A stretch of 64,000 bases of DNA from an uncultured Alphaproteobacteria bacterium (GTDB lineage Bacteria > Pseudomonadota > Alphaproteobacteria > HIMB59 > GCA-002718135). The stretch lies in NCBI GenBank assembly GCA_902635455.1, contig CACPNW010000002.1:48869-112868 (forward strand), written 5' to 3'. The position numbers and the translations under genes were made by a program. This document shows, piece after piece, positions 43,929 through 52,010 of this stretch (its first letter is position 1; every line of letters starts with the position of its first letter). The notes below the pieces were generated by a model, which did not search any database, had not been told where the DNA came from, and saw only the letters and a list, made by a program, of their open reading frames with translations.

Positions 43929-44018
43929 GGAGAGATGTGAGAGCGGTTTAATCAGCACGCTTGGAAAGCGTGTATAGTGGCAACACTATCGAGGGTTCGA
44001 ATCCCTCTCTCTCCGCCA
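43929..44018 (+). tRNA. tRNA-Ser(GGA), complete
   Basis: Acceptor GGAGAGA/TCTCTCC, anticodon arm CACGC-TTGGAAA-GCGTG (anticodon GGA), long variable arm ATAGTG-GCAA-CACTAT, T-arm GAGGG-TTCGAAT-CCCTC, encoded CCA. Confidence 0.95.
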
Positions 44019-44061
44019 TAAATTTATAAATTTTGATGAGCTATTTGTTACAAAAAATCTA

Positions 44062-44088
44062 TTTGGACTCAAATAGGCCTCACTTGCT
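44062..44088 (+). repeat. imperfect direct repeat, copy 1
   Basis: tttggactcaaataggcctcacttgct; 21/27 identical to 44690-44716. Confidence 0.55.
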
Positions 44089-49218: not shown

Positions 49219-50064
49219 CTAATCCTTTAATGAATCACTTCTAACTCTTTTTTCCTTATGAACATCAAGAGTTTTTCCATATAATTCTTCTGATCGGTAG
49301 CTAGAACCAATAACATTTTCTTTTTCAGTATAAGTGAAGACAACAAGATTTCGGGTTTTAGATCCCTCTGCCCTTGTCGCGCGGTGTAAAGCATATCGTC
49401 CTTTAAATAATTGAAGATCTCCTTCATTTAATTTAATTTCTTTAATTCGAGACTTGTCGCCTTTAAGTAATTTTAAGACTTCATCATAACATTCATCTTC
49501 TTTATTACGAATATTTGGCACGTATTGAAATATACCACCTTTATCACTGTCCTGAACAAGTAAAGTAACAGTAAATTCATTGGTATCATAATGCCAAGAA
49601 AATCTATCACCGGGTTTGTTGACATTAATAGTCAAGGAAGCAAGAGGATCGGCATAATGATATATCTTGATATCTAAACACTCAGAAATAAAATTTTTAA
49701 GATTTTCAGAATAATATAATTCTTTTATTAATGATTTTTTAGCAAATTTATCACCAGACACAAAACCATTACTTCGTTCCATAAAAAAACGTCGAGGATG
49801 ATCCTTAGGGTATTTTAGGTCATCTTTTGAAAAGTAAACATTAACTTTATTTGTAGTGTAGTGAGCTTGATCTTCAATAGTTGATGCTTCTTTTTGCATT
49901 TCATAAATAGCTTCAGTATTTATAATTGATTTAAAAACATAACAACCATCTGTTACTAAAGCTTTTTTTGCTTCTTGAATAATTTTTTTGTATTTTGAAT
50001 TTTTCCTATCATGAATTGGAAATTTTTCTAAATTTATAAAATATGATAAATTATTTTTTTTCAT
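49219..50064 (-). CDS. BesD/HalD-like 2OG-Fe(II) oxygenase family protein
   Basis: SWHYDTNEFTVTLLVQDSDKGGIFQYVPNIRNKEDECYD...GDLQLFKGRYALHRATRAEGSKTRNLVVFTYTEKE. Confidence 0.65.
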   Translation of the reverse strand: MKKNNLSYFINLEKFPIHDRKNSKYKKIIQEAKKALVTDGCYVFKSIINTEAIYEMQKEASTIEDQAHYTTNKVNVYFSKDDLKYPKDHPRRFFMERSNGFVSGDKFAKKSLIKELYYSENLKNFISECLDIKIYHYADPLASLTINVNKPGDRFSWHYDTNEFTVTLLVQDSDKGGIFQYVPNIRNKEDECYDEVLKLLKGDKSRIKEIKLNEGDLQLFKGRYALHRATRAEGSKTRNLVVFTYTEKENVIGSSYRSEELYGKTLDVHKEKRVRSDSLKD

Positions 50065-50276
50065 AAATATTTTCTATTATTCAAATTGCTAAATTTAGAA
50101 CAAATATCTATCAATCATAAAATTTTTAGAAAACGAATTTCTTGTTGATAATTATATTTATGTAAAAGAATTTTATGCCAAATTATCAAACTTTTTCTTA
50201 ATATTTTTTATCTAATATATTTTTTTTTTTACATATAAGTAAATGTTGTATATAAAAATCTAAAGTAGGAGAAATT

Positions 50277-50345
50277 ATGAATAAATGGACTTGGATTATT
50301 GGAATAATAGTAGTTGTTGTTATACTTTATTTCGTATTTGCTTAG
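50277..50345 (+). CDS. 22-aa single-pass membrane small protein
   Basis: MNKWTWIIGIIVVVVILYFVFA*, preceded by SD-like TAGGAGAAATT and followed by an intrinsic terminator. Below the ORF track length cutoff. Confidence 0.55.
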   Translation: MNKWTWIIGIIVVVVILYFVFA

Positions 50346-50400
50346 TAATTATAATTTTAAATATTTAATTTATACTTTATTTTAAAAAATTTTAAATTTA

Positions 50401-50430
50401 GAGCTCACTTTTTAAGTGAGCTCTTTTTTT
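50401..50430 (+). terminator. Rho-independent terminator
   Basis: GAGCTCACTT-TTT-AAGTGAGCTC perfect 10-bp stem followed by T7. Confidence 0.9.
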
Positions 50431-50435
50431 AATTA

Positions 50436-52010
50436 TTAGATAACAGCGCTTAATAATGTTTTTGTATAATCATTTTTTGGATTATTAAAAATTTCATCTG
50501 TGTTTCCTGATTCAATTAAATTTCCATTTTTTAATACTAGAATGTTGTCCGCAACTGATTTTATTACTTTCATATCATGACTAATAAATAAATAACTTAT
50601 TAAATATTTTTTTTGGAGATTATTTAGTAAATCAATTATTTGTTTTTGAATTGTTATATCAAGTGCTGAAGTTGGTTCATCAAGAATTAAAATTTTAGGA
50701 TTTAATATTAGAGCCCTAGCAATTGCTATTCGCTGTCTTTGACCTCCAGAAAATTCATGAGGAAATCTATTATAAGTTTCTGAATATTTTAAACCTACTT
50801 CATTTAAAATCGATTCAACTTTTAAATTTTTTTCATCAACTGAAATATCTGGATAATGGACATAGAGCCCCTCAGAAACAATTTGCTCTACAGTCATTCT
50901 TGGACTTAATGAGGAAAATGGATCTTGAAAAACTATTTGTATGTCTTTTCTTAATTTTTTGAATTCTTTTTGTTTTAAATTAGATAGCTCTAAATTATTT
51001 ATCTTAATTTTACCTTCAGAATTTATTAGTTTTAATATTGCTAGCACCAATGATGTTTTTCCTGATCCTGATTCTCCGACTATGCCTATAGTTTCTTTTT
51101 TATTTAAATTAAAACTAAGATTGTTGATTGCCTTTACATGATCAACAGTTTTTTTAAGTATTCCTTTTTTAATTGGATACCATACTTTTAAATTTTCAAC
51201 GTTTAAAATACTATTTTTTATAAATTCATTTTCTCTTTTTTTGTTTTGAGAATTAATTAATTCTTTGGTGTAATTATGAATTGGGTTATTAAAAACTTCA
51301 TCTTTTGTATTTTTTTCAATTATTTTACCTTCTTTCATTACACATATGAAATCAGCCATATGTTTAACAACAGAAAGATCATGACTAATAAATAAAATAG
51401 ACATGTTTAATTTTTTTTGAAGCTTTTTAAGCAACTCAAGGATTTGAATTTGTACCGAAACATCAAGAGCAGTTGTAGGTTCATCAGCAATTAATAAATC
51501 TGGATTATTTGCAATACTCATAGCAATCATAACTCTCTGCCTTTGACCTCCTGAAAGTTCATATGAATAAATATTTGGTCTTTTTGCAATTTCTTCTAAA
51601 CCAACTTCTTTTAAAAGTTCTAAAGTTTTCAGCCTTGCACTTTTTGTAGAGCTATTTGAGTGAGTTGTTATTATTTCTTCTATTTGCCTATCGATTGTAT
51701 GAAGTGGGTTTAAGCTTAACATGGGTTCTTGAAAAATTGTAGTAAAATTTTTACCACGTATCTTTTGCATTTGTTGGTCAGTATTAGCTAATAGATTTTT
51801 ATTATTATATATTATCTCACCATCAGCATTAGTTGCTGCACTAGGTAAAAGTTTTAATATGCTTAATGCAGTTATTGTTTTTCCTGAACCTGATTCTCCT
51901 ACTAGCGCAACTGTTTTACCTTTTGGAATATCAAAAGAGATATTATCTATAATTTTTTTATCTTTATTAAAAACAACACTTAAATTGCTTATTGTTACTA
52001 GATTATCCAT
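50436..52010 (-). CDS. yejF: peptide ABC transporter, fused tandem ATP-binding protein (YejF-like)
   Basis: Two ABC ATPase domains (GESGSGKTITALSIL ... SGGQRQRVMIAMSIA; GESGSGKTSLVLAIL ... SGGQRQRIAIARALI). Confidence 0.85.
   Translation of the reverse strand: MDNLVTISNLSVVFNKDKKIIDNISFDIPKGKTVALVGESGSGKTITALSILKLLPSAATNADGEIIYNNKNLLANTDQQMQKIRGKNFTTIFQEPMLSLNPLHTIDRQIEEIITTHSNSSTKSARLKTLELLKEVGLEEIAKRPNIYSYELSGGQRQRVMIAMSIANNPDLLIADEPTTALDVSVQIQILELLKKLQKKLNMSILFISHDLSVVKHMADFICVMKEGKIIEKNTKDEVFNNPIHNYTKELINSQNKKRENEFIKNSILNVENLKVWYPIKKGILKKTVDHVKAINNLSFNLNKKETIGIVGESGSGKTSLVLAILKLINSEGKIKINNLELSNLKQKEFKKLRKDIQIVFQDPFSSLSPRMTVEQIVSEGLYVHYPDISVDEKNLKVESILNEVGLKYSETYNRFPHEFSGGQRQRIAIARALILNPKILILDEPTSALDITIQKQIIDLLNNLQKKYLISYLFISHDMKVIKSVADNILVLKNGNLIESGNTDEIFNNPKNDYTKTLLSAVI

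Follow-up and report, generated by a model that had tools for sequence, protein, structure and literature searches.

The enterobacterial proteins YohP (27 aa), YpdK, YoaJ and MgtS are single-pass membrane microproteins, while the type I toxins Ibs, ShoB, TisB and TimP are very small hydrophobic peptides. CydX of cytochrome bd oxidase and KdpF of the Kdp potassium pump each consist of one tiny helix that stabilises a large membrane enzyme, a role akin to the one proposed below. YohP is described as a membrane microprotein in PMC7549839, and a global microbial smORF catalogue has been built from metagenomes with a lower limit of 30 nt (PMC11364881).

Here we describe a microprotein gene in a window of 64,000 nucleotides (the whole stretch of DNA that was analysed) from an uncultured alphaproteobacterium, whose assembly comprises 1.14 Mb and is 68% complete. 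The product resembles YohP, YpdK, YoaJ and MgtS in having fewer than 35 residues and one helix, and in being encoded by a stand-alone short gene with its own Shine-Dalgarno sequence (SD) that annotation misses. It differs from them in its confinement to one marine Alphaproteobacteria family and in its length of 22-23 aa, among the shortest. The kind is known, while the family itself appears to be unnamed in the libraries searched: Pfam, NCBIfam, PHROGs and PDB gave no match at meaningful score, and no sequence relationship to any named family was detected in them. The Pfam family DUF4083 was considered and rejected (14.1 bits against a gathering cut-off of 25.4, with a weak match in just 2 of 10 members). 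CydA (PF01654) was found in none of 40 genomes, carriers and non-carriers together, with 10 of 14 controls positive, and KdpA (PF03814) in none of the same 40, with 5 of 14 controls positive; the microprotein is therefore neither CydX nor KdpF. Given its 30-nt limit, the smORF catalogue (PMC11364881) may contain the microprotein as an unnamed cluster, without function or gene-level evidence.

Anatomy of the locus

The features of the locus, with the two flanking genes given as context, are as follows.

50277..50345, plus strand: microprotein gene, ATG at 50277, stop TAG at 50343-50345; 22 codons plus TAG, MNKWTWIIGIIVVVVILYFVFA
50266..50276, plus strand: Shine-Dalgarno region TAGGAGAAATT, with AGGAG at 50267-50271, from direct sequence reading
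50286..50339, plus strand: predicted transmembrane stretch WTWIIGIIVVVVILYFVF, residues 4-21; Wimley-White octanol sum -16.1 kcal/mol
50400..50430, plus strand: terminator-like hairpin with T run, 11 bp and a 3-nt loop; score matched by 0 of 200 shuffles
49219..50064, minus strand: HalD-like / 2OG-Fe(II) oxygenase family protein (Pfam HalD, 2.6e-19), upstream and divergent, outside the unit
50436..52010, minus strand: YejF-like ABC ATPase with two domains (Pfam ABC_tran, 5e-65), downstream and convergent

An earlier note on this DNA had reported an ORF with its own SD, which is exact to the letter, and direct reading gives the start context AGTAGGAGAAATT-ATG. The 10-bp perfect hairpin with seven T that it placed at 50401-50430 is also there, consisting of GAGCTCACTT-TTT-AAGTGAGCTC at 50401-50423 (11 bp if the A-T pair 50400/50424 is included) with seven T (50424-50430) directly on its 3' side. 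This hairpin is the sole terminator-like site within 49900-50800 (shuffle mean 0.0, sd 0.2). The gap between two minus-strand genes, given as roughly 370 bp, measures 371 bp between the ORFs 49219-50064 and 50436-52010. The remark that standard ORF callers miss the gene fits its length of 69 bases, stop included, which lies below Prodigal's usual lower limit. A lowered length limit was needed for smORF detection in published work (PMC11364881). Permease and binding-protein genes lie behind the YejF-like ABC ATPase gene, and no good match to a sigma-70 promoter was found just upstream of the microprotein gene in this genome.

Shuffled intergenic DNA yields a mean of 1.76 SD-preceded ORFs of 15-60 codons per window, and a mean of 0.20 that are comparably hydrophobic. 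Since SD-preceded tiny ORFs are not rare in shuffles, the anatomy in one genome is weak, suggestive evidence, and on the sequence comparisons described below the reality of the gene is settled by conservation among relatives and not by anatomy. The only other SD-preceded tiny intergenic ORF in the window (43986-44072, minus strand) is presumably a spurious one, overlapping a tRNA-Ser (43929-44018).

Distribution of homologues

A protein search found the microprotein ORF in 15 of 102 genomes of the genus, the source genome counted; a sixteenth listed genome matched only within a 317-codon ORF, and so was not counted. Across 162 genomes of the order, a profile search recovered the ORF from all five sampled genomes of three sister genera in the same family; the order's other family yielded no credible match. 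Homologues are thus present in 19 other genomes, making 20 sequences with that of the source genome, and the gene is single copy in each. When profiles were run more widely, against 385 genomes of the class and 399 of the phylum, no credible homologue emerged beyond the source genome's own copy. The other matches sit within open frames of greater length (88-732 codons), L197 for example being the N-terminal anchor in an ORF of 460 codons, and were rejected as homologues. Phages, plasmids and viral contigs gave no match.

At the DNA level, a search with a 350-bp region returned mostly AT-rich chance matches, the real ones being those that cover the ORF. A degenerate codon pattern run against genome contigs gave 14 matches, 13 in records of marine or uncultured Alphaproteobacteria and one in a Pelagibacteraceae MAG.

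Conservation of the protein and its unit

The 20 sequences share the consensus M(N)NKWTW[IV][IV]AAVVVIVILYFVFS, i.e. M(N)NKWTW[IV]2AAV3IVIL-YFVFS-stop. The earlier note had proposed frameshifts or stops in orthologous loci as the outcome that would speak against the gene; in all 20 sequences the frame, the length of 22 or 23 aa and the position of the stop are kept, and the sole indel is one codon after the start. Residues N3, W7, Y19 and F20 (alignment numbering) are invariant in 20/20, and core substitutions are restricted to V, I, A, G and L, save single exceptions.

The comparison of synonymous and nonsynonymous changes in relatives, proposed in the same note, shows that synonymous substitutions predominate. 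Over all pairs pS is 0.55 (near saturation) and pN is 0.14, giving an in-frame pN/pS of 0.26, while the same DNA read in the two other frames gives 0.65 and 4.4. Of the 93 changes counted in eight non-overlapping pairs, 55 are at third codon positions (P = 3e-7 against one third); the P value is only indicative, since some phylogenetic dependence between the pairs remains. Judged from these substitution patterns, purifying selection maintains a W-x-W / V,I-rich / Y-F helix, and we regard a real, coding gene as virtually certain.

The signals around the ORF are kept to different extents. A strong SD precedes the ATG by 4-9 nt in all 20 homologues (AGGAG or AGGAGG, and GGGGG in two genomes). A hairpin of 10-15 bp lies no more than about 60 bp past the stop in 13 of the 15 genus members (12 besides the source), a score equalled by none of 200 shuffles; hairpins were scored individually against shuffles, since the MAFFT alignment had placed the right arms wrongly. 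The hairpin sequence varies while its pairing is kept, e.g. ACCTCTCTTTGATT/AATCAAAGAGAGGT versus TCCCTCTTTG/CAAAGAGGGA. The terminator-like hairpin is thus conserved in form in these 13 genomes, and the reading as a microprotein unit is supported. A good T run is missing in part of these hairpins, so that some may be weak, or may be bidirectional terminators common to the convergent gene. The remaining two genomes (G061 and G080) have a weaker hairpin instead, which resembles the 3' part of a tRNA-Ser.

Gene order and inheritance

The next gene downstream (at least 80 aa) is convergent in 20/20 genomes, and its identity changes. A yejF-like gene adjoins the ORF only in the source genome and G080, and lies one gene off in G061; the HalD-like gene is beside the ORF in the source genome and not in relatives. 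In the 12 other genus carriers the usual neighbour is a CIA30-like gene, with a SAM-decarboxylase-like or bactofilin-like gene in some of them. One sister genus has ATP synthase genes, an SDR and a NUDIX gene as neighbours, and the others differ elsewhere (neighbour names in relatives were read by eye from the sequence, not assigned by family search). As no neighbour is common across the lineages, the microprotein gene appears to be a stand-alone unit, which would act without an operon partner.

In a tree of 76 YejF proteins, rooted at the midpoint only, all 11 carriers that have YejF fall into one well-supported group of 17, with no carrier among the other 59. The neighbouring CIA30-like gene is missing as well from five of the six non-carriers in the group of 17, which is what incomplete assemblies would produce. 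In G064 (L189), aldehyde-dehydrogenase-like and CIA30-like genes, which flank the microprotein gene in G006 and G035, are directly adjacent with the ORF absent. This syntenic absence is an apparent clean loss, and since the gene is missing both in G064 and in the sister clade, it is dispensable. Since the ORF also occurs in three sister genera, the pattern in the YejF tree is most simply explained by a gene already present in the family ancestor, followed by vertical descent with relocation and by loss in the larger genus clade.

Alternative explanations

The main rival to an accessory or regulatory membrane helix is the toxin of a type I toxin-antitoxin system, in which a tiny hydrophobic peptide depolarises the inner membrane and is silenced by an antisense RNA. 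In length and hydrophobicity the microprotein is like Ibs, ShoB and TisB, and a short intergenic unit with SD and terminator fits such a system, as do a chromosomal neighbourhood that differs between lineages and the loss of the gene at least once. Unlike those toxins, it is always single copy and vertically inherited, clade by clade and not scattered, and it has no phage or plasmid match. Its SDs are very strong and lack a conserved sequestering helix, the predicted SD being 26-75% unpaired in the genus. No antitoxin RNA was detected: there is no antisense promoter excess and no Rfam family above its gathering score, although such RNAs are easily missed. On balance we consider a toxin unlikely. 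A secreted or membrane-inserted bacteriocin-like peptide would likewise be tiny and hydrophobic, but the microprotein has no leader, genes for processing, export or immunity are not conserved alongside it, and the lineage is streamlined and free-living, all of which make this reading very improbable.

Two further readings would place the function in the transcript or in the act of translation. An SD and short ORF followed by a hairpin and T run are the layout of a leader or attenuator peptide, which regulates a downstream gene by its translation; the gene order described above largely refutes this, as no same-strand gene follows, and the conserved sequence is a membrane helix, not a run of one regulated amino acid, leaving this reading with a negligible chance. 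A small regulatory RNA of roughly 150-190 nt, with the ORF incidental or secondary, would also form a short stand-alone unit with a terminator, but the conservation lies in codon positions and not in the nucleotides as such: synonymous sites in the ORF have diverged (pS 0.55) while the protein is kept, and the UTRs diverge. We give the small RNA very little credence. Rfam matches for the region are weak and at chance level, all below gathering scores.

Membrane helix and proposed mode of action

The predicted transmembrane stretch makes up most of the protein, and only A22 lies between it and the stop. Among the homologues the predicted hydrophobic stretch spans 16-19 residues, with octanol sums of -13.1 to -17.1 kcal/mol. 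The microprotein is thus predicted to be a single-pass membrane microprotein, an assignment to a class and not to a homology family: its own conserved ORF of 22-23 aa in 20 genomes, under a pN/pS of 0.26, is well below the approximate 50-aa bound of the class, and one membrane-spanning hydrophobic helix is predicted in all homologues.

The best explanation, which we hold to be probable, is a vertically inherited inner-membrane protein of 22-23 residues with a single membrane pass, encoded in its own short unit and serving as an accessory or regulatory helix. The gene would be transcribed as its own short unit of SD, ORF and terminator. The positive N-N-K end and the lack of a C-terminal tail suggest N-in/C-out insertion, with the N-terminus (N-N-K) in the cytoplasm, and the W-x-W and Y-F motifs would sit at the two membrane faces. 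As almost nothing would protrude, the protein would act only inside the bilayer, by helix packing, presumably against a larger membrane protein whose gene lies elsewhere in the genome. We give this accessory or regulatory mechanism about an even chance. A broader proposal is more tentative: the homologues may form a new family of near-minimal helices that tune a core membrane complex of an abundant marine Alphaproteobacteria family, kept through genome streamlining and rearrangement and lost in the sister clade, perhaps with a change in the partner complex.

The gene means that extremely streamlined ocean bacteria retain genes as short as 69-72 bases, which are lost in ordinary annotation. Its 20 sequences, defined conserved residues and distinct carrier and non-carrier clades make a clean, testable family, and if a partner is found, the microprotein would rank among the shortest functional membrane proteins known.

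Flanking elements in relatives

The sister genera have no hairpin within 100 bp past the stop. An identical GCATTTCCTC element lies about 8-12 nt past the stop in all three of them (L110-L112, L114 and L115), in flanks that have otherwise diverged. Pairing with the SD is one conceivable role of this element, for which a convincing prediction was obtained only in G133; an action on the opposite strand is another.

About 50-75 nt past the stop, L109 and L113 have a hairpin that looks like the remnant of a tRNA-Ser (T arm and 3' end), and several relatives have an intact-looking tRNA-Ser-like sequence just downstream of yejF. Given these intact-looking sequences, the spot of the tRNA-Ser-like hairpin may be an old integration site. 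On the other side of the ORF, the 12 sequences that make up the larger genus subgroup (L097-L108) all have a promoter-like block, TTT ... ATAACTT or similar, about 55 nt before the ATG, within surroundings that have diverged.
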